The position numbers and the translations under genes are program-made. A model generated the notes under the pieces. It searched no databases and had not been told where the DNA came from. It saw nothing but the letters and a program-made list of their open reading frames with translations. DNA of 41,372 nt, from NCBI GenBank assembly GCA_010672585.1, contig JAAHGF010000008.1, positions 465,616 to 506,987 of the forward strand, written 5' to 3'. Source of the DNA: Okeania sp. SIO1I7 (GTDB lineage Bacteria > Cyanobacteriota > Cyanobacteriia > Cyanobacteriales > Microcoleaceae). This document shows, one piece after another, positions 19,941 through 33,562 of this stretch; position 1 is the first letter of the stretch, and each line of letters starts with the position of its first letter.

Positions 19941-21146
19941 CTAAATCTTTGTGATTCCCTCTCCTCCTGAATCCTGACTCCTGAATCCTGACTTCTTTTC
20001 TGAAAATTTCATATAATTTAGCAAATTTATTTGATATTGATAGACTGATTGTTCTAAATCTTTCGCGATCGCACCAATAGAAAAATAGGGAGACTTTAGT
20101 GACCGTTGTTGTTGTTCGCACACATAAATATCCTCAGCTATAAAATCGCCAGATGCGAGGGGGTCCTCCTCATTCCCCGTACCATACTTATCCCATTTCC
20201 GCTTCGCAAAATAATTCCAAGATTTCCATTCCTGCTGCATATACTTCCAGTTAGATACAGGCATCACCTTCGACCTAATTTCCACAATTGAGCGATCGGG
20301 AGCAACTGGAATTACATGAAACGTAGACCAGCTTGATTCAATTTCACTTAATCCCAGATTGGGAAATAGCATCGGTACATAAGCACCAATTTTATCTTTT
20401 GGCACATGATTAATCAGGGGTAGTGGGGAATTATTCTCTATTCCTTCCAGATAATCCTTTGCTAGTGGTTCATAAAAATGAAAATGTTCGCCGACAAACC
20501 CAGTCTGCTGTCGCCTATGGTTATACATAAACAGCGTTTGAGAATGGAGGTGAGGTAAATGATAACCGTCAATATAATTTTCGACAATAATTTTCCAGTT
20601 AGCGTTAATTTGGTGACGAATTCTAGCTTCAACATATTCTACCAGTTTTTCTGGCTGATGAGGGCCTAAGTATGGTTCAATAGGACTAAACCAATCAACT
20701 AAAGACCTGGCATTAGGATCGGGGTGAACAAAAATCATACCTCGCCAAATTCCTACTGAAGCTTTGTGGAGGGATAGGGTTTGGAAATCCAGACCGGGAA
20801 ATTGGGTTTTGCATTCTGGTACAGCAGTGAGGTTGCCATCAAGATTATAAGTCCAATCGTGGTAAGGACAAGCGATCGCTTTCTTACGTTTCCCAGAAGT
20901 CCGAAGTAGTTGCGTACCACGGTGACGACAGATATTGTGGAAAGCACGCATCTGTTTGTTATCATCCAACAGCACTAAAATATTATTAACTCCTGCTTGC
21001 ACAGTCAGATAATCTCCTGATTCACTCAGGTCTTCAACAAATCCACCAAATTGCCAGGTCTGACTAAAGATAGTTTCTTGTTCTCGGTCGAACCAATCTT
21101 GTGAGGTATATGCTTCAATTGGTAAAATGGGCTGTGTTATTGTCAT
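19941..21146 (-). CDS. Aromatic ring-hydroxylating dioxygenase alpha subunit (Rieske type)
   Basis: A 401-aa Rieske non-heme iron oxygenase. The Rieske [2Fe-2S] ligands are C73/H75 (CRHRG) and C93/H96 (CPYHDW). The mononuclear iron motif is N190-x-x-D193-x-x-H196-x4-H201 in ENYIDGYHLPHLH, and EDIYVCEQQQ may give the carboxylate ligand region. Substrates of the family range from aromatics to choline and carnitine; none can be chosen. Both gene ends look altered by repeats. The last roughly 18 residues (SGFRSQDSGGEGITKI) are encoded by STRR and mobile-element sequence. The DNA right before ATG is a TATCCGG-type repeat end with no ribosome site. Catalytic parts are intact. Confidence 0.88.
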   Translation of the reverse strand: MTITQPILPIEAYTSQDWFDREQETIFSQTWQFGGFVEDLSESGDYLTVQAGVNNILVLLDDNKQMRAFHNICRHRGTQLLRTSGKRKKAIACPYHDWTYNLDGNLTAVPECKTQFPGLDFQTLSLHKASVGIWRGMIFVHPDPNARSLVDWFSPIEPYLGPHQPEKLVEYVEARIRHQINANWKIIVENYIDGYHLPHLHSQTLFMYNHRRQQTGFVGEHFHFYEPLAKDYLEGIENNSPLPLINHVPKDKIGAYVPMLFPNLGLSEIESSWSTFHVIPVAPDRSIVEIRSKVMPVSNWKYMQQEWKSWNYFAKRKWDKYGTGNEEDPLASGDFIAEDIYVCEQQQRSLKSPYFSIGAIAKDLEQSVYQYQINLLNYMKFSEKKSGFRSQDSGGEGITKI

Positions 21147-21417: not shown

Positions 21418-21520
21418 CCCTACTCTCCTACTCCCCTACTCCCCCATTCTCCCACTCCCCTACTCCCCCACTCTCCCACTCCCCCACTCCCCTACTCCCC
21501 TACTCCCCTACTCCCCATCT
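21418..21520. repeat. Long STRR array (CTCCCCTA / CTCCCCCA units)
   Basis: About 100 bp of 7-8-bp C-rich units such as CTCCCCTACTCCCCCA. The array reaches the 3' end of the cysteine desulfurase gene and encodes its last few residues' downstream sequence. Confidence 0.85.
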
Positions 21521-22683
21521 TTATAAACGGTTGCTTTGCGTAAAGATGTAATAGTAGCGATCGCGTGTTCGACCACCAAGTCTATTTCTTCCGCAGTATT
21601 AAACCGCCCGATGCCAAAACGCACGGAAGCATAAGCTAATTTTTCTGAGCGCCCCAAAGCTGCCAAAACATGGGAAGGTGCAATTTTTGCAGAAGTACAA
21701 GCAGAACCGGAAGAGACCGCCACCACAGGTTGTAACCCCAATAACAATGCTTGCCCATCTACACCCTCAACGCTAATATTCAAATTTCCTGGCAAACGCT
21801 GAGTCGGATGTCCGTTGAGAAAAATATTTTCCACTTTTTGCAGTTTTTCCCACAACTGTTGTCGTAAAGTGGTTAACCGTTTTGCCTCTGATTCCATTTC
21901 TGCTATTGCCACTTCCACAGCTTTACCAAAACCGACTATTTGCGGAGTATACAAAGTGCCAGAACGCATACCTCTTTCGTGACCGCCCCCATGTATTTGA
22001 GGTGCTAATTTTACCCTGGGATGACGACGACGCACATAGAGAGCGCCAACACCTTTTGGTCCGTAAACTTTGTGGGCAGTTAATGATAGTAAATCAATAT
22101 TCATTGTCTGCATATCTAGAGGAATTTTCCCAATAGCTTGTGCAGCATCAGTATGGAAAATAATGGAATTTTCTTTACATATTTCTCCTATTTTTGCCAA
22201 GGGTTGTAAGACACCAATTTCATTATTTGCTGCCATAACAGAGACTAATATTGTATCAGAACGTAATGCAGTTTCTAGGGAAGTTAAATCAATAATTCCA
22301 TCTGTATTTACAGGTAAATAAGTAACTTCAAATCCCAAGTTTTGTAAATATGTACAGGGGTCGAGAACGGCATTATGTTCCGTGGCAATAGTAATAATAT
22401 GTTTACCTTTATTGAAGTAAGCTTCGGCGACTCCTTTTATTGCTAAATTATTTGCCTCTGTCGCTCCACTGGTAAACACAATTTCTTCGGGGGTGGCGTT
22501 AATAGCTGAAGCTAAAATTTCTCTAGCTTTTTTAACTGCTGCTTCTGCTTCCCAACCATATTGATGAGTAACACTGGCAGGGTTGCCAAAATGTTCGGTG
22601 AAGTAAGGCAACATTGTTTTTAATACTCGTTCATCAAGAGGAGTAGTCGCGTTGCAGTCGAGATATATAGGACGTTGTAACAT
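21508..22683 (-). CDS. Cysteine desulfurase, NifS/IscS family
   Basis: A 391-aa PLP enzyme that takes sulfur from cysteine for Fe-S clusters and thiocofactors. PLP-binding K205 lies in LTAHKVYGPKGVGAL, with H204 next to it. The catalytic Cys loop is SSGSACTSAKIAPSHVL (C329), the class I IscS/NifS-type loop, and ERGMRSGTLYTPQIVG is typical. The start MLQRPIYLDCNATTPLD is canonical. No nif genes are nearby, so it is more likely a housekeeping desulfurase, but iscS versus nifS cannot be settled. The end runs into an STRR array; no ribosome site was seen. Confidence 0.93.
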   Translation of the reverse strand: MLQRPIYLDCNATTPLDERVLKTMLPYFTEHFGNPASVTHQYGWEAEAAVKKAREILASAINATPEEIVFTSGATEANNLAIKGVAEAYFNKGKHIITIATEHNAVLDPCTYLQNLGFEVTYLPVNTDGIIDLTSLETALRSDTILVSVMAANNEIGVLQPLAKIGEICKENSIIFHTDAAQAIGKIPLDMQTMNIDLLSLTAHKVYGPKGVGALYVRRRHPRVKLAPQIHGGGHERGMRSGTLYTPQIVGFGKAVEVAIAEMESEAKRLTTLRQQLWEKLQKVENIFLNGHPTQRLPGNLNISVEGVDGQALLLGLQPVVAVSSGSACTSAKIAPSHVLAALGRSEKLAYASVRFGIGRFNTAEEIDLVVEHAIATITSLRKATVYKDGE

Positions 22684-23004: not shown

Positions 23005-26000
23005 TTACTCGATCACTGGATGAATTGGAATTTGAATAATAAATTCAGTTCCTTGACCTAGTTGAGAATTACAGAATAGTTGACCCCCATGTTTTTGTAC
23101 TATAATTTCATAACTAATAGAAAGTCCTAAACCAGTTCCTTTTCCCACCTCTTTAGTAGTAAAAAATAGGTCAAATATTTTGTCTTTTGCCTCTTGAGTA
23201 ATCCCCAAACCATTATCAGCAATTTTAATTAAAACTGTGTCAGGATTATCTGGATTAATTTCTGTAGTAATTGTAATAGTAGGAATAAAAAATTTATCTG
23301 TTTCCAGTTTTTCTTCCAATACATCTATGGCATTACTAAGTAGGTTCATAAATACCTGATTAATTGGAGCTGCATAACACGGAACTAAAGGTAAATCCCC
23401 ATAATTTTTAACAATAGTAATCTGAGGAAGTTCTGGTTTAAGTTTCAATCGATGTTGCAAAATTAACAAGGTACTATCAATCCCTGCATGGAGGTCTACT
23501 TCTTTCTTTTTAGACTCATCAAGGCGAGAAAATGTTCTTAATGATAATACTAATTGACGAATTCTTTCAGCTCCCATCTTCATAGAATCTATCATCTTAG
23601 GCAAATCTTTAATAATAAACTCCAAGTCAATATCTTCTGAAAAATCTTGAATTTCAGAAACTGGTTCAAGATAATGTTGATGATATAATTTCATCAAAGT
23701 GAGCAAGCTTTGTGCATACTCATCGACATGAGTCAGATTGCCAGAAATAAAATTTACAGGATTATTAATTTCATGGGCAATACCTGCTACTAACTGCCCT
23801 AAACTAGCCATTTTTTCACCCTGAATCATCTGCACTTGAGTTTGTTTTAACTCCTGCAGAGTTTTTGTTAACTCTTCAGTTTGGGTACGGGTTTTTTCCA
23901 GTAATTCAGCTTGTTGTAAAGCAATACCTAACTGCACTCCCACCTGTGCTAGCAAATTAATTTCTTCATCTTGCCAATAACGAGGGCTAGAATTTTGATA
24001 AGCAACCAGTAACCCCCAAAGTTGATCTCCCTGCAAAATGGGCACAAAAGTTTCATTTCTAGGAAGTGTACCAGCATGAGTCAGTTTACTGATTACAGGA
24101 TTAATTGCTAAAGGAGTCTGAACGATAGGAGTCCATTCATCAATCATTGAATCTGCCACAAATTCCCCACTCCAGTCTGGATAAAAACGATAAATAGCGA
24201 CTCTCTCAACTTCTAGTAACTGTCGTACCTCTTGAGTAGTCGTCTGAAAAATTGCATTAATATCAAGAGATTGCCGAATTCTGTCAATAGTAATTGACAG
24301 TGCCTTTTGTCGTTCCGTTGCTTTGGCTAACTCTGCTGCTTGAGTTTTAACTTGTTTGACATACTCAGCTTGTTGTAGTGCGACTCCCAACTGAACGCCA
24401 ATTTGAGTTAATAATTCTACCTCTGCTGTTTCCCACTCACGGGGTGCAGAATTTTGAAAAGCTGCTAGCAAACCCCAAAGTTTTTTGCCCTGATAAATAG
24501 CCACAATGGCATAAGCTCGAGCTTGGTAAGACTCTAAAGTCTCAATGTAACAGTCGCTAAAACCTGAATTATAGATATCGTTGCAGGTACGATAAACTAC
24601 TCCTTTGGTAAAATCTCCGCCTTGAGTTTCCTGCAAATAAGTATCAGTTAGGGAATTTGGCAAATCTCTAAGGGAACACTTACTAACATTTGCAGGAACT
24701 TTAGGATTTTCCTTTTGCTCCTGTATTAACTGAACCCAACCCTCAGCAACTGACTCAGCCATAAATTCCCCACTCCAATCATCATTGAAGCGGAAGATCG
24801 CAACTCTGTCTACATCTAAAAGTTGCTGCACTTCTTGAGTAGTTGTTTGGAAAATTGTCTTAATATCCAGAGACCGACGCATTTTGTCAACAATTGCAGC
24901 CAGAGTTTTTTCACGTTCTGCAGATTTTTCTTGCTCTGCTGCTTTTGCTAGTTGTACCGACTGCTCCTGAACTTTCTGAAAATACTCAGCTTGTTGGAGA
25001 GCAACTCCCAACTGAGCAGCTATTTGAGCTAGCAAGTCTACTTCATCCTTTTGCCAATGACGAGGAGCCGAATTTTGATAAGCTGCCAGCAAACCCCAAA
25101 GTTTTTCTCCAGGTAAAATTGGCACAAGTGCATAAGACCTGGCTTCAAATTGTTCTAAAAGTTGAACATAACACTCATCATGACCCACCTGATAAATATC
25201 GTCAACGGCAAAAGTTTCATTGTTTACATACCGCCCCCCCTGAGTTTCTTGTAAAAAAGTATCTTCAATAATCGGCTGAACTCCGACTAGAGGAGTCCAT
25301 CCTTCCGCAAAAGACTCGGCAACAAATTCCCCACTCCAGTCAGGCAAAAACTGATATATTGCCACTCGCTCTGCTTGCAGAAGTTTTCTTACTTCTTCGG
25401 TTGCAGCCGCAAAAATTGTCTCAATATTAAAAGATCGGCGAATTTTGTCAAATAATTCACCTACAATTTTCTGGCGTTCGGCTAACTTTTCCTTTTGTCT
25501 ACTTATCGCCAGTTGTGCTGCCTGTTTTTCAAGTTGTATCAGAGCATCTTCTTGTTGTAGCGCTACACCAAAATGATCGGCTATTTGTTGAACAAATTCT
25601 ATTTCGTACTCTTGCCAATGACGGGGACTACTGCATTGATGAATGCACAGCAAACCCCAAAGTTCGGGTAATATTTCTGTACCTGCACCTTTGAGTAGAG
25701 GCACAACTAGATTAGCTCGTACTTGAAATTGCCCCAAAATTTCTGCATGGCAATCACTTAATCCTGCTTGATAAATGTCTGCCACTGCTTGTACTCTACC
25801 TTCTTGATAATAAACAGCAAATTGTTCCCCAAAACAGTGGTCGTATACTTTAACTGCTAATGCTGAATTCCACTCTGTTCCTACATCTTCAGAAACCAAT
25901 TCTCCTTCCCAGTCTCTTTCTGGATAAAAACGAAACACTCCCACGCGGTCAGCTTTGAGTAGTTGACGTACTTCTGTGGCAGTAATCTTAAAAATTTCTT

Positions 26001-26634
26001 CTAAATCTAGTGGGGTACGAATTCTCTTGATTACTCTAGCTAAGGCTTTTTGTTGTTGTACTTGGTAATGTGCTGCTTCTAGAAGGTCTGTATTTTTGAT
26101 GACTACTCCTAGATTTTGAGCCATTGTCTGAGCAAGTTCAATCTCCACATCTTGCCATTCCCGAGGTCTGCTACATTGATGTATACAAAGTAATCCCCAC
26201 AGTTCGGGTTTAGTTAATGTTGTAGCATCTTTGGTGTTATCTACTTTTGTGAGTATGGGAACTACTAAATGAGCTTGTACCTGAAACTGTTGGAAAATTT
26301 TGGCTTCAGATTCACTGAGTTTTGCTTGCTCAATATCCGTTACAGTTTCAATGTATCCTTCTGTATTGTATACAGCTAATTCTTCCCCAAAAGGCCAATG
26401 CTCTACCCTCTCCCCTAAAATAGAATTCCAATCATCTGCTACATCTTCGCAAAGAAATTCTCCTTGCCAATTTAACTGAGGATAGAAGCGCAGCAAGGTC
26501 ACTCTGTCTGCATTGATTAACTGTCGTACCTCTGTAACAGTAGTTTTGAAAGTAGTTTCTTGGTCTAGAGATGCTGGAATACGAGCGATCGCTGTTGCTA
26601 ATTTTTTTTTATATTCTTGATTTTCTACAGACAT
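23005..26634 (-). CDS. Multi-GAF sensor histidine kinase with candidate cyanobacteriochrome domains
   Basis: A 1209-aa soluble hybrid-free sensor kinase. Five GAF domains lie at about residues 20-180, 205-362, 395-548, 585-756 and 785-908, joined by helical linkers. The kinase core follows: H-box H954 (ASLGQLVAGIAHEINNP), N-box N1097/N1101 (NLLSNAID), G1 D1140-N-G-L-G and G2 GKGTGLGLS. GAF2 carries the DXCF motif D265-H-C267-F plus C295-H296, with a 28-residue spacing as in TePixJ-type blue/green photoreceptors. GAF3 (C488-Y489) and GAF4 (C695-Y696) have a Cys at the bilin position. GAF1 has Ser there, and GAF5 is shortened and lacks the region. It ends in the kinase; the response regulator is not adjacent. 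Bilin binding is inferred. Confidence 0.92.
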   Translation of the reverse strand: MSVENQEYKKKLATAIARIPASLDQETTFKTTVTEVRQLINADRVTLLRFYPQLNWQGEFLCEDVADDWNSILGERVEHWPFGEELAVYNTEGYIETVTDIEQAKLSESEAKIFQQFQVQAHLVVPILTKVDNTKDATTLTKPELWGLLCIHQCSRPREWQDVEIELAQTMAQNLGVVIKNTDLLEAAHYQVQQQKALARVIKRIRTPLDLEEIFKITATEVRQLLKADRVGVFRFYPERDWEGELVSEDVGTEWNSALAVKVYDHCFGEQFAVYYQEGRVQAVADIYQAGLSDCHAEILGQFQVRANLVVPLLKGAGTEILPELWGLLCIHQCSSPRHWQEYEIEFVQQIADHFGVALQQEDALIQLEKQAAQLAISRQKEKLAERQKIVGELFDKIRRSFNIETIFAAATEEVRKLLQAERVAIYQFLPDWSGEFVAESFAEGWTPLVGVQPIIEDTFLQETQGGRYVNNETFAVDDIYQVGHDECYVQLLEQFEARSYALVPILPGEKLWGLLAAYQNSAPRHWQKDEVDLLAQIAAQLGVALQQAEYFQKVQEQSVQLAKAAEQEKSAEREKTLAAIVDKMRRSLDIKTIFQTTTQEVQQLLDVDRVAIFRFNDDWSGEFMAESVAEGWVQLIQEQKENPKVPANVSKCSLRDLPNSLTDTYLQETQGGDFTKGVVYRTCNDIYNSGFSDCYIETLESYQARAYAIVAIYQGKKLWGLLAAFQNSAPREWETAEVELLTQIGVQLGVALQQAEYVKQVKTQAAELAKATERQKALSITIDRIRQSLDINAIFQTTTQEVRQLLEVERVAIYRFYPDWSGEFVADSMIDEWTPIVQTPLAINPVISKLTHAGTLPRNETFVPILQGDQLWGLLVAYQNSSPRYWQDEEINLLAQVGVQLGIALQQAELLEKTRTQTEELTKTLQELKQTQVQMIQGEKMASLGQLVAGIAHEINNPVNFISGNLTHVDEYAQSLLTLMKLYHQHYLEPVSEIQDFSEDIDLEFIIKDLPKMIDSMKMGAERIRQLVLSLRTFSRLDESKKKEVDLHAGIDSTLLILQHRLKLKPELPQITIVKNYGDLPLVPCYAAPINQVFMNLLSNAIDVLEEKLETDKFFIPTITITTEINPDNPDTVLIKIADNGLGITQEAKDKIFDLFFTTKEVGKGTGLGLSISYEIIVQKHGGQLFCNSQLGQGTEFIIQIPIHPVIE

Positions 26635-29041: not shown

Positions 29042-32000
29042 CTATTGAAAAGACCATAAAAAGTCTTGACCTGTACCTGGTCGATACCAGAGAATATCAG
29101 AGAAGACATTGCCGTTAAAGTCTCCAGTTATGGGGGTATAAGTTCCGTTAACTGTGAAAGGACTGCTCTCAAAAGTACCGTCAGAATTGAAAGACCAGAC
29201 AAAATCTTGAGCTGTACCTGGTCGATACCAGAGAATATCTGTGGTACCACTAGCATCAAAATCTCCAGCTACAGGGGTGTAAGTTCCGTTAACTGTGAAA
29301 GGACTGCTCTCAAAAGTACCGTCGGAATTGAAAGACCAGACAAAATCTTGAGCTGTACCTGGTCGATACCAGAGAATATCTGTGGTACCACTAACATCAA
29401 AGTCTCCAGCTACAGGGGTGTAAGTTCCGTTAACTGTGAAAGGACTGCTCTCAAAAGTACCGTCGGAATTGAAAGACCAGACAAAATCTTGACCTGTACC
29501 TGGTCGATACCAGAGAATATCTGTAGTACCACTAGCATCAAAGTCTCCAGCTACTGGGGTGTAAACACCGTTAACGGTGAAAGGACTGCTGGTACGATTT
29601 CCATCCTTATCAAAGAACCAGATGAAATCCTGGCCTGACCCTGGTTGATACCACAGAATATCTGAGGTGCTATCACCGTTAAAATCTCCTACTATCGGCG
29701 TGTAAGTACCATTGACGGTGAAAGGACTGCTATCGTAACTATTGTCAGAGTTAAAGAACCAAATGAAATCCTGGCTGGGTCCTGGTCGATACCACAGAAT
29801 ATCAGTATTGTTGTCCCCATTAAAGTCACCTGCAATGGGTTCATATTCCCCATTAATTGTGACTGGGGTGCTTGTGTAAGATGCTTCTTCTGAGATTGTA
29901 GTAGATATGGTTTCTGTATTTGTATTATTGGATTCGTCAGTCTCCGCAACAGCATCAAAACTGTCAACGAGCATACCAATCTGATAATCTGCGTCCTCAT
30001 CCCAAGAAAAACCGTCTATAGTAGGTAGGAAAAAACTTTCACTTAAGACTCCAGTATTACTGTTTCCTGGCAAACCTTCTATCCAGGTAAAACCAAGCAG
30101 ATAGTCTTCCTGTGGATCGATATCACCATCCTCAGATAAGAAGAAGTCTACCCAGAAACCAGTAGCATCATCGCTGCCAGTATTTTCTACGGAGAAGTCA
30201 ATATCAATAGAATCACCTGGACTAAGTTGTTGCGGAGTTACTTCAAAGACATCACTAGATAGATCAATTTGGTCTTCAAACGTAGAGAGAATCAGTTCCA
30301 GGTTAATATTACCAATGTCACCATCGAATCCATCCACTGCAATGTTGTAGGTTTCACCTGCAACTACATCAAAGATAATCTCACTCTGGAGACCGTAGTT
30401 TACACTATCATCATTGCTCGCTACCTCAGTTAAGTCCAAGAGAGATGAATCTGTATAAGCTGCTAGTATGGTGTCAAAATCACTACCGCCAGTATTGACG
30501 GTTAAAGTACCATCACTAGGAGCAGTCCAACTCCACCAAAGGGATGCACCACCAATGTTTCCTGCATGAAAAGGCTCTGCTGACTCTACTGTTGCGTTCT
30601 CGTTCGTAGCTGTTTCATTAATCTGTGAACCGCTTAAAGAAATCCTGTCAGCAAAATCATCATTTAAGGTCTCTGTCTCCAAGAACAAAGCTAACTCAAC
30701 ATTACCTGCTGCTCCAAAATATCCATCCACTGCTATTTGATAGTTAGTTCCAGCTTCAGCTTGGAAAGCAATTTGGCTTTGCAGATCAATAGTATCGTCA
30801 TTGCTAGCAATTTCAGTTAAGTTCGAGACTGAGGAACCTGTGTAGGCTGCCAAAATGGTGTCAAAATCGCTACCAAAGGTATCAATAGTTACTAATCCTG
30901 AACTAGGAGCTGTCCAATTCCACCATAGGGAATGACCACCAGGAATTCCAACATGATCAGGTTCTCCCGATTCTATGGAAGCGTTGATGCTACTAGCAGT
31001 TGCATTGTCAGAATTACCACTGAGGGTAGCACTGTCAGCAAAATCATCGTTAGATATCTCTGATGTTGCTAGGTCTAAATCTAAAACGATATTACCCTCT
31101 TCAGCAAAACCATTAAAGAAACTAAAATATCCATCAACTGCAATCTTATAATTTGTACCCTCAATAACCTCAAAAGTCACCTGACTTTGTAATCCATCAC
31201 CGCCATTATCGTCACTGGCGACTTCAGTCAGGTTTGACACAGAATCACCTGTATAAATTCCCAATAGAGTATCAAAATCACTGCCATCAGTTCCGATAGT
31301 TACTAATCCCGTACTGGGTGCCGTCCAATTCCACCAAACGGAACTACCACCATCATTTCCAGCATGAAAAGGTTCTCCGAATTCTACGGTGGCATCAATA
31401 TTACTGCCAGTGGTGCTAGCAGATGAACCACTTAGAGGAATACTGTTAGATAGGTTATCGTTTTCTACCCCTATTGTTTCCAGTGAAAGGTCGAGATCAA
31501 TATTGCCTGTAGCTCCCAAATATCCATCCACGGCAAAATGATATGTATTTCCCCCTACCGCATCAAAAACAATTTCGCTTTGGGTACCACCTCCACTATC
31601 GTCGTTACTGGCAACTTCAGTCAGGTTTGACACCGAAGCACCTGTATAGGCAGCCAATACAGTATCAAAGTCACTGCCGAAAGTATTGACTGTTACTTCC
31701 CCAGAAGTAGGAGCTGTCCAACTCCACCAAACAGAATTACCACCTCCAAGACCAGCGTGATTTGGTTCTCCAGACTGTTGAGTAGTATCAATGTTTGAAC
31801 CAAAGTCGCTGTCTGATGTACCAAACAGGATTTCGCTATCTAGGAAATTATCGTTGTCAGGTCGAGTAGTTTCTACCTCTAATGCAGCACCTAGATTAAG
31901 TCTGGGTTTAGTAATTCCGTTGCGGTGGTCTGTAATTGGGTCGCCAGAATTGAGCATCCGTTGCAGAATTTGGTCAGGACTTTCATCAGGGAAGGCTTCA

Positions 32001-33562
32001 GATAAAACCGCAACTGCTCCGGCAACGTGGGGTGCTGCCATTGAAGTGCCAGAATAGTTAGGTAATCCCCCAGCAGTAATTCTAGACCCTGGTGCGAGTA
32101 TGTCTAGAAATTGGGCACTGTTGGAGAAAATTGCTACTCGATCTGGTTCAGCGTTATCGTTTCCATAAGTCCCTGTGTAGTCATAGGTCGCGCCAACAGA
32201 TACCGCACTTTCAACAGCTGCAGGCCATGAAATCCCATCGGTATATCCATCATTGCCCGAAGCAACAATACTGAGAATGCCTGCTGATTTTGCTTGGGCA
32301 ATGGCTTGACCTAGAGAAGAGCTATTATCTGAGAGTGGAGCTGTATTTTTTTGGCTACCACCAAGACTCATATTGATGGCTTCAATATTGTAGGTATTTT
32401 TGTTTGCTATCGCCCAGTCAACTGCTTCAACAATATCATTTTCAGTAGCTAGACCATTACCGCCAAAAACATCTAGCGCAGCAATATCCGTATCGGGTGC
32501 AACTCCAGCAACAATGGCACTAACATTAGTTCCATGACCATCATCATCACTAACACCATCATTAATGGCAAAGTCTTGAGCTACTACTACTCGACCCTGA
32601 AGTCCTGGAGCATTTGGATCAGCACCTGTATCCAAAACGGCAACAGTTGTACCTTCTCCAGTATATCCACCTGCTTCTGCTTCTGGTTGGTTTATTATCG
32701 GTAGACTTTCTATTAGAGATTTTTCCAGGGTTTCGGGAATTGTAGCTTGTAAAACATCAGGATTTTCTAGTAGTTCTAGCAGAGGTTCTTCTGACTCAAA
32801 CCGAACGAAAGAAATTGCCAAGTTTTCATACTCTTCTATAATTTCAAATCCTTCTGGTAAATCAGAGAATAGCTCTTCTTTAAGTTCTGCCAGCAATTCT
32901 GCTTTGTATGCCAAAAGTTCGTCGCTACCTACCTCTAAACCTTCCTCGACCATTCGAGTTTCTACCAGTGCATCAACTTCACTGGTGTCTAATGAGACTA
33001 AAAGTTCTTGGTCCTCACCATCAGCGATCGCTTCTAAAACCTCTGGCGATACTTTCTCTTCTGGTTCTAATGAAGCAATACTACTTGGTGTCTCTGTGAA
33101 TTTTCCTTCTGGTGGAATATTTACGACATCTGTTTCAGATTTTTCTCCATCATCTACAGATATTTTCTCTTCTTTGGGTAAAGTAACATCAGTGGGTTTT
33201 TCTGGTGAATTATCAGAAGATTCTTCTTTGGGTAGACCTGTTAATAAATCGGCGTTTTCCGTTCCAAGGTCTTTCAAATCTTCTTGTTCAAACCGACCTA
33301 TAACTACTTCTTTCTCACCTGTAGAGCTTTGGTCAGTTGCATTTCTGAGGCCATCAAATGAATTTTCAAAATTGATATTACTTTTTAGTACAATATCATC
33401 AGTATCTTCTTTAACATTTAACACAGGAGGTAAATTGGTATCCCCATCAGAAGCTGAAAATTTATCTAAGGGAATATTAGGTTGTTCTCCTACAACAAAA
33501 TTATAGTTGAGAGGAGATTCTGGTTCATTTAAAGGGCCATATAGTTCTGTTGTTTCTGCCAT
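29042..33562 (-). CDS. Large subtilisin-like (S8) serine protease with PPC, CARDB and FG-GAP-type repeats
   Basis: A 1506-aa protein. Residues 1-180 are acidic and low in complexity; 185-290 resemble an I9-type propeptide (IIEEYENLAISFVRF). The S8 domain (about 298-560) has D311 (VAVLDTGAD), H343 (DDGHGTNVSAIVAG), N437 (VASGNDG) and S507 (YSGTSMAAPHVAGA). Four PPC-like beta domains of about 120 aa follow, each with a GEPxHAG...VWWxWTAP motif, then a CARDB-like domain (VENTGSDDATGFWVDFFLSE). The end has six 47-aa repeats (GDF-x-D/N...TDILWYRPG), as in FG-GAP/VCBS propellers. No classical signal peptide is seen; the acidic Ca-binding look suggests non-classical or type I secretion (inference). 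AGGAAA lies just before ATG. Confidence 0.92.
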   Translation of the reverse strand: MAETTELYGPLNEPESPLNYNFVVGEQPNIPLDKFSASDGDTNLPPVLNVKEDTDDIVLKSNINFENSFDGLRNATDQSSTGEKEVVIGRFEQEDLKDLGTENADLLTGLPKEESSDNSPEKPTDVTLPKEEKISVDDGEKSETDVVNIPPEGKFTETPSSIASLEPEEKVSPEVLEAIADGEDQELLVSLDTSEVDALVETRMVEEGLEVGSDELLAYKAELLAELKEELFSDLPEGFEIIEEYENLAISFVRFESEEPLLELLENPDVLQATIPETLEKSLIESLPIINQPEAEAGGYTGEGTTVAVLDTGADPNAPGLQGRVVVAQDFAINDGVSDDDGHGTNVSAIVAGVAPDTDIAALDVFGGNGLATENDIVEAVDWAIANKNTYNIEAINMSLGGSQKNTAPLSDNSSSLGQAIAQAKSAGILSIVASGNDGYTDGISWPAAVESAVSVGATYDYTGTYGNDNAEPDRVAIFSNSAQFLDILAPGSRITAGGLPNYSGTSMAAPHVAGAVAVLSEAFPDESPDQILQRMLNSGDPITDHRNGITKPRLNLGAALEVETTRPDNDNFLDSEILFGTSDSDFGSNIDTTQQSGEPNHAGLGGGNSVWWSWTAPTSGEVTVNTFGSDFDTVLAAYTGASVSNLTEVASNDDSGGGTQSEIVFDAVGGNTYHFAVDGYLGATGNIDLDLSLETIGVENDNLSNSIPLSGSSASTTGSNIDATVEFGEPFHAGNDGGSSVWWNWTAPSTGLVTIGTDGSDFDTLLGIYTGDSVSNLTEVASDDNGGDGLQSQVTFEVIEGTNYKIAVDGYFSFFNGFAEEGNIVLDLDLATSEISNDDFADSATLSGNSDNATASSINASIESGEPDHVGIPGGHSLWWNWTAPSSGLVTIDTFGSDFDTILAAYTGSSVSNLTEIASNDDTIDLQSQIAFQAEAGTNYQIAVDGYFGAAGNVELALFLETETLNDDFADRISLSGSQINETATNENATVESAEPFHAGNIGGASLWWSWTAPSDGTLTVNTGGSDFDTILAAYTDSSLLDLTEVASNDDSVNYGLQSEIIFDVVAGETYNIAVDGFDGDIGNINLELILSTFEDQIDLSSDVFEVTPQQLSPGDSIDIDFSVENTGSDDATGFWVDFFLSEDGDIDPQEDYLLGFTWIEGLPGNSNTGVLSESFFLPTIDGFSWDEDADYQIGMLVDSFDAVAETDESNNTNTETISTTISEEASYTSTPVTINGEYEPIAGDFNGDNNTDILWYRPGPSQDFIWFFNSDNSYDSSPFTVNGTYTPIVGDFNGDSTSDILWYQPGSGQDFIWFFDKDGNRTSSPFTVNGVYTPVAGDFDASGTTDILWYRPGTGQDFVWSFNSDGTFESSPFTVNGTYTPVAGDFDVSGTTDILWYRPGTAQDFVWSFNSDGTFESSPFTVNGTYTPVAGDFDASGTTDILWYRPGTAQDFVWSFNSDGTFESSPFTVNGTYTPITGDFNGNVFSDILWYRPGTGQDFLWSFQ
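29043..29640 (-). repeat. 141-bp coding tandem repeats at the 3' end of the protease gene
   Basis: The C-terminal 47-aa repeats are encoded by 141-bp units. Those from about 29180 to 29600 are nearly identical in nucleotide sequence (for example GAGAATATCTGTGGTACCAC spaced exactly 141 bp), while the outer units have diverged. This points to recent unit amplification or gene conversion. Confidence 0.85.

Follow-up and report, generated by a model that had tools for sequence, protein, structure and literature searches.

Which signals does the multi-GAF kinase of Okeania sp. SIO1I7 sense, and through which of its domains? The gene lies in a stretch of 41,372 nucleotides (the whole stretch analysed, hereafter the window) from a genome of 9.48 Mb. 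It was described in a first-pass annotation as a five-GAF histidine kinase with a cyanobacteriochrome (CBCR) signature in its second GAF domain. Consistent with that layout, a single open reading frame (ORF) of 1,209 amino acids is present on the minus strand, in which Pfam recognizes five GAF stretches and HATPase_c (2.6e-21), HisKA scoring under its cut-off (20.6 bits vs 26.9); on the plus strand, frame 1 of the same interval has many stops. All kinase boxes are present, namely H954, the N-box at residue 1097, G1 at 1140, F at 1154 and G2 at 1166. Taken together, the analysis makes it very probable that the protein, from a marine filamentous cyanobacterium resembling Okeania, is an NpR1597-type CBCR histidine kinase in which GAF2, GAF3 and GAF4 are bilin sensors. 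The protein is thus probably a photoreceptor kinase with three likely photosensors of different kinds. Its sequence class is already known, and what is new is another member, the unusual element of which is GAF5.

The nearest named relative, from Okeania sp. SIO2B3, is 97% identical over the full length (the search may omit the window's own record), and all four same-genus genomes contain a match of 85-96% identity across most of the GAF array. The homologue set comprises 73 proteins from 77 loci, the remaining four (L142-L145) having no multi-GAF frame. The number of GAF domains is three or four in Nostocales and Trichodesmium and five, six or seven in Okeania, where three proteins (L070, L071 and L073) have six, including two insert-Cys copies, and one (L098) has seven. 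In comparisons with these four and L078, none of the six domains reaches a ratio of nonsynonymous to synonymous substitution rates (dN/dS) of 1. From the near-identical homologue L069, GAF1 and GAF4 diverge more at silent sites than the remaining domains.

GAF2 carries D265-H-C267-F and C295-H296, as the first-pass annotation had stated; both sequence strings quoted there are found, and the two cysteines are indeed 28 residues apart, which equals the TePixJ spacing counted on aligned residues. The DXCF motif is found in 70 of the 73 homologues, and each of 77 DXCF motifs has a Cys at +28, followed by His (40), Tyr (36) or Gln (1), so the pair in GAF2 is not due to chance. Among the three proteins without the motif, L074 is interrupted by the contig start, and L116 and L140 represent real losses: the former lacks both cysteines, and in the latter the canonical Cys is gone and an insertion splits the DXCF. 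Both are Nostocales proteins in which the remainder of the array is retained. The dN/dS of GAF2 ranges from 0.18 to 0.40 in the five more distant comparisons named above.

The phylogeny and the predicted structure also place GAF2 among CBCR domains. A tree was built from 90 GAF domains, leaving out domains shorter than 95 amino acids, duplicates, L080_d3, L080_d4, L050_d1 and PDB chain 5zoh, whose alignment was in two pieces. There GAF2 clusters with first GAFs from Nostoc homologues in a clade of 22 rows (96/86), which also includes six Cys-less GAF1 domains. This clade, together with one further DXCF GAF from the same genome, is the sister of a 41-row red/green (XRG) clade. Forcing GAF2 to group with ten GAFs of its own genome that have no bilin Cys was rejected by the approximately unbiased (AU) test (p = 0.0011), the groups for all AU tests having been chosen after tree inspection and several members being long branches. 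The AlphaFold2 model of GAF2 is confident, with a predicted local distance difference test score (pLDDT) of 89.3 and a predicted template modelling score of 0.86, and shows a CBCR-type GAF fold in which C295, the residue aligned to the canonical Cys, opens the alpha-4 helix (91-99 in the model), with the DXCF Cys as the second cysteine. Foldseek lists 6oaq/6oap/6ob8, 3w2z and 5zoh first and TePixJ (4fof) at rank 20. The 'dual sensor histidine kinase' of PDB 6oap/6oaq is the best match in both sequence and fold, and differs in having Tyr at the position of the GAF2 DXCF Cys.

GAF4 appears to be a sensor of another kind. According to PMC5240096, insert-Cys CBCRs have their second Cys within CXXR/K of an insertion loop and a DTYL-type Asp motif. 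In GAF4, a long insert contains C653 as part of C-S-L-R, and D-T-Y-L and C695 come next; the domain belongs to an insert-Cys clade of 14 rows (100/100). The insert-Cys motif is present in 70 of the 73 homologues, 64 of 78 such motifs fitting CXXR/K and the others having Q, T, I or V. Compared by the text of that paper only, the near-UV/green insert-Cys domains UG1/UG2 of Microcoleus B353 also combine an insert Cys with DTYL. In comparison with L069, L070, L071 and L073, the single insert-Cys GAF of the window is more like copy 1 towards the 5' end and more like copy 2 towards the 3' end, with a mixed middle; this pattern, which crossing-over between copies would leave, suggests that it arose by fusion of two tandem copies that persist in congeners. 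The genome encodes a second likely insert-Cys CBCR, with C-V-V-K and D-T-Y-L, as part of a hybrid kinase (L051, contig C35).

GAF3 lies in the 41-row XRG clade (100/99) with its canonical C488 present, and its best solved relative is the red/green CBCR NpR6012g4 (PDB 6bhn, E = 2.6e-62), from which it differs by Cys-Tyr and by Ile for the lid Trp. GAF1 lacks both bilin cysteines. The free tree nests it inside the DXCF clade, and a clade of Cys-bearing DXCF rows excluding GAF1 was not rejected (AU p = 0.139); we therefore claim for GAF1 only DXCF kinship, as a nested or a sister lineage, with both cysteines missing. The first-pass picture of the sensors thus holds for GAF2 as a CBCR domain, and it had missed that GAF3 and GAF4 are CBCR domains as well and that GAF1 and GAF5 have no bilin site.

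In 34 of the 73 homologues, all Nostocales by record title, numbering from the first Met puts the insert Cys at residue 298, and C298 is named as the insert Cys of NpR1597g2 in PMC5240096. Because of this agreement and the order of a DXCF GAF followed by an insert-Cys GAF, the Nostocales homologues were taken as NpR1597 and the window protein as its relative. NpR1597g1 is labelled teal-DXCF in a figure legend (PMC5240096), NpR1597g2 has a UV/blue cycle with the second thioether retained in both states (PMC5578081), and a red/orange cycle is reported for NpR1597, whose g4 domain reverts in the dark with a half-life of 3.5 h (PMC6121604). The two proteins share the order of DXCF GAF, insert-Cys GAF, loop-deleted GAF and kinase, as read in the Nostoc homologues, as well as the CXXR/K and DTYL motifs. 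The window protein differs in adding the Cys-less GAF1 and, between the DXCF and insert-Cys domains, the XRG-type GAF3, and in being without the last GAF of the Nostoc proteins. NpR1597g1 of Nostoc punctiforme, not TePixJ, is probably the nearest characterised relative of GAF2.

The part of the protein that sets it apart is GAF5. When aligned to GAF3, its R-N-E-T-F passes directly into V-P-I-L, so that the segment with the canonical Cys is gone. Aligning every protein shows this deletion in all 73 homologues, none with an insertion of more than eight residues in the match (a simple text pattern catches 64). With six Okeania proteins and one from Hydrocoleum set aside, the median identity of the other 66 homologues to the window protein is 73.6% for GAF5, 67.7% for GAF2, 62.9% for GAF4 and 59.5% for the kinase; the medians of GAF1 and GAF2 cover 65 proteins, one being under 80% coverage, and identities of GAF1 and GAF3 to Nostocales are best local matches rather than orthologue identities, the Nostocales proteins having neither domain. 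GAF5 is more identical than the kinase in all 66 and than GAF2 in 64 of them, and its dN/dS (0.11-0.16) is the lowest of the six domains in each of the five more distant comparisons. At E = 1e-40, a GAF5 profile matched 14 places in 13 of 194 cyanobacterial genomes (its own included), each over all 129 positions. At these places the upstream sensors vary in kind and order, and the kinase comes next, directly or after one GAF (12 places by pattern, L158 and L161 from printed sequences). In the tree, the GAFs with the loop deletion fall together in a single clade within XRG (11 rows, 100/99), which fits a single origin of the deletion. The GAF5 model is moderate (pLDDT 75, below 50 for residues 52-72), and Foldseek matches it mostly to CBCR GAFs, with template modelling scores of 0.6-0.7 and high root-mean-square deviation. 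No literature on truncated or non-binding GAFs in cyanobacteriochromes was found, which is no proof of absence.

In addition, the genome contains three Fe_bilin_red matches and one heme-oxygenase match, so the cell can probably make bilin. The earlier proposal of a light-regulated kinase is thus supported by the tree, the AU rejection, the fold, the conserved cysteine pair, the kinase boxes and the bilin-enzyme families. No response regulator was found among the 16 other window ORFs put to Pfam, a scan outside which lie a transketolase-like ORF and several short ORFs. A conserved partner gene was also sought beside the homologues and rejected: among the flanking ORFs scanned at six loci, a LuxR-type regulator occurs at L070, a hybrid kinase lies beside L126, and nothing is common. 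At L070 (Okeania sp. SIO2C9), the LuxR-type response regulator is upstream (L070:7853-8593) and a TspO-family gene downstream (L070:14786-15520); both are absent from the scanned ORFs at the five other loci.

From this evidence we infer how bilin attachment, colours, signal integration and kinase output may be arranged. GAF2 would bind phycocyanobilin, or its isomer phycoviolobilin, via C295, and would photoswitch as a second thioether between C267 and the bilin is made and broken, absorbing blue light in one state and teal-to-green or longer wavelengths in the other. The insert Cys C653 and the canonical C695 would give GAF4 a near-UV/violet-absorbing state. GAF3 may act as an XRG-type sensor with one Cys, whose dark state would probably absorb red light and whose photoproduct is unsure because the lid Trp is Ile. 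GAF1 and GAF5 would be blind, and GAF5, placed between the sensors and the kinase, most likely relays the combined conformational change to H954, that is, it would serve as a transmitter. The cognate response regulator would be encoded elsewhere. More tentatively, and in our view possible but doubtful, GAF5 may be a dedicated adapter whose pigment segment was lost once, before the Nostocales and Oscillatoriales homologues split, and then fixed, so that sensor GAFs for UV, blue, teal and red light can replace one another and still drive a single kinase through it, perhaps by means of a new non-bilin ligand or by forming an obligate dimer interface.

Several observations weigh against reading the protein as an NpR1597-type photoreceptor, and some of them favour other explanations. 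The likeness to NpR1597 was drawn from a residue number and the domain order in other Nostocales proteins, not from the ATCC 29133 sequence. No response-regulator neighbour is shared among ten flanking ORFs at six loci (10 of 24 listed ORFs put to Pfam: two each at L070, L093, L110 and L126, one each at L080 and L130). The kinase domain has a dN/dS of 1.6 against L069, on a dS of 0.01 with too few changes to use. Moreover, GAF3 and GAF4 have Cys-Tyr instead of Cys-His, and GAF3 has I-E-D-T-F-L in place of the XRG motif WXDXXL (PMC11284453), for which reason it is XRG-type by lineage and not a typical red/green member. Together with a Leu in strand beta-2 of GAF2, these features mean that colours are not directly transferable. 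The Cys-Tyr pairs would also suit relic cysteines in an array that no longer binds bilin, which would make this an ordinary GAF-domain kinase, as would the losses that do occur in the family: GAF1 and GAF5 have no bilin site, and L116 and L140 show that the DXCF cysteine pair is not indispensable. However, Cys-Tyr is also found in Nostoc domains matching the photoactive NpR1597g2 and in miRFP670nano, a near-infrared protein that binds bilin, and the retention of the DXCF pair and the insert-Cys motif in nearly all homologues and the low dN/dS of GAF2 make such a relic highly improbable. We give equally little credence to GAF5 as a decaying pseudo-domain without a role; the missing bilin segment and the moderate model would fit decay, whereas the deletion in every homologue, the identity above that of the kinase and the lowest dN/dS of the protein would not.

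Whether GAF2 is instead a TePixJ-type blue/green sensor, as the first-pass annotation implied, is a closer question. The TePixJ GAF (PDB 3vv4, 4fof) has the same DXCF and CH residues, 28-residue spacing and fold, and a forced joint clade of the DXCF and TePixJ groups was not rejected (AU p = 0.33), so the TePixJ lineage remains a rival although the free tree separates the two. In addition, the beta-2 residue is Phe in 65 of 76 motifs (Ile in five, Leu in two, unread in four) and Leu in GAF2, and by the trapped-twist model (PMC5240096) Leu for the usual Phe could shift the photoproduct from teal. On the other side, TePixJ is a methyl-accepting-type protein, and the unconstrained tree joins it to five GAFs of the own-genome protein L044 (6 rows, 100/98), while GAF2 joins first GAFs from Nostoc homologues, where the teal-DXCF NpR1597g1 belongs. 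We consider a TePixJ-type GAF2 unlikely. For its colour, GAF2 is better compared with NpR1597g1 than with TePixJ, with caution over the beta-2 Leu.

Table 1. Features of the kinase gene in the window. Limits of GAF5 and the kinase core were drawn by hand; aa, amino acids.
Feature	Position	Strand	Basis
Multi-GAF CBCR histidine kinase gene	23005..26634	minus	single ORF, 1209 aa; Pfam domains
GAF1 (aa 18-187), GAF of DXCF lineage, both bilin cysteines missing	26074..26583	minus	alignment, tree
GAF2 (aa 204-367), DXCF CBCR, NpR1597g1-like	25534..26025	minus	tree, fold, alignment, AU test
D265-H-C267-F motif (second Cys)	25831..25842	minus	translation, alignment, homologue survey
Canonical bilin Cys C295-H296 (in S-D-C-H)	25747..25752	minus	translation, alignment, homologue survey
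GAF3 (aa 397-554), XRG-type CBCR with Ile for the lid Trp of WXDXXL	24973..25446	minus	alignment, tree, structure match
Canonical Cys of GAF3, C488-Y489	25168..25173	minus	alignment
GAF4 (aa 584-761), insert-Cys CBCR, NpR1597g2-like	24352..24885	minus	tree, motifs, homologues
Insert Cys C653 in CXXR motif (C-S-L-R)	24667..24678	minus	translation, alignment
Canonical Cys of GAF4, C695-Y696	24547..24552	minus	alignment
GAF5 (aa 784-912), XRG-derived, bilin-Cys segment deleted, most conserved domain	23899..24285	minus	alignment, tree, identity
Histidine kinase core (aa 940-1206), phospho-acceptor H954	23017..23817	minus	Pfam, alignment

Two genes on the minus strand lie downstream of that for the kinase: a class-V aminotransferase gene, cysteine-desulfurase-like (21508-22683), and beside it a gene of the Rieske oxygenase alpha-subunit type (19941-21146). 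The window also encodes, on the minus strand, a 718-amino-acid lipoxygenase-family protein (PF00305; 10569-12725) and a 1,506-amino-acid subtilase with CARDB, PPC-like and FG-GAP repeats (29042-33562), which is perhaps secreted.

In summary, a marine filamentous genus gains a predicted multi-colour kinase; within the open-licence literature, no paper treating cyanobacteriochromes and Okeania together was found. The relatives with three to seven GAF domains form a natural series for studying how several photosensors merge into one output, and the conserved, presumably blind GAF5 is the part of the protein worth following, as it offers a clear place for testing how sensors are combined.

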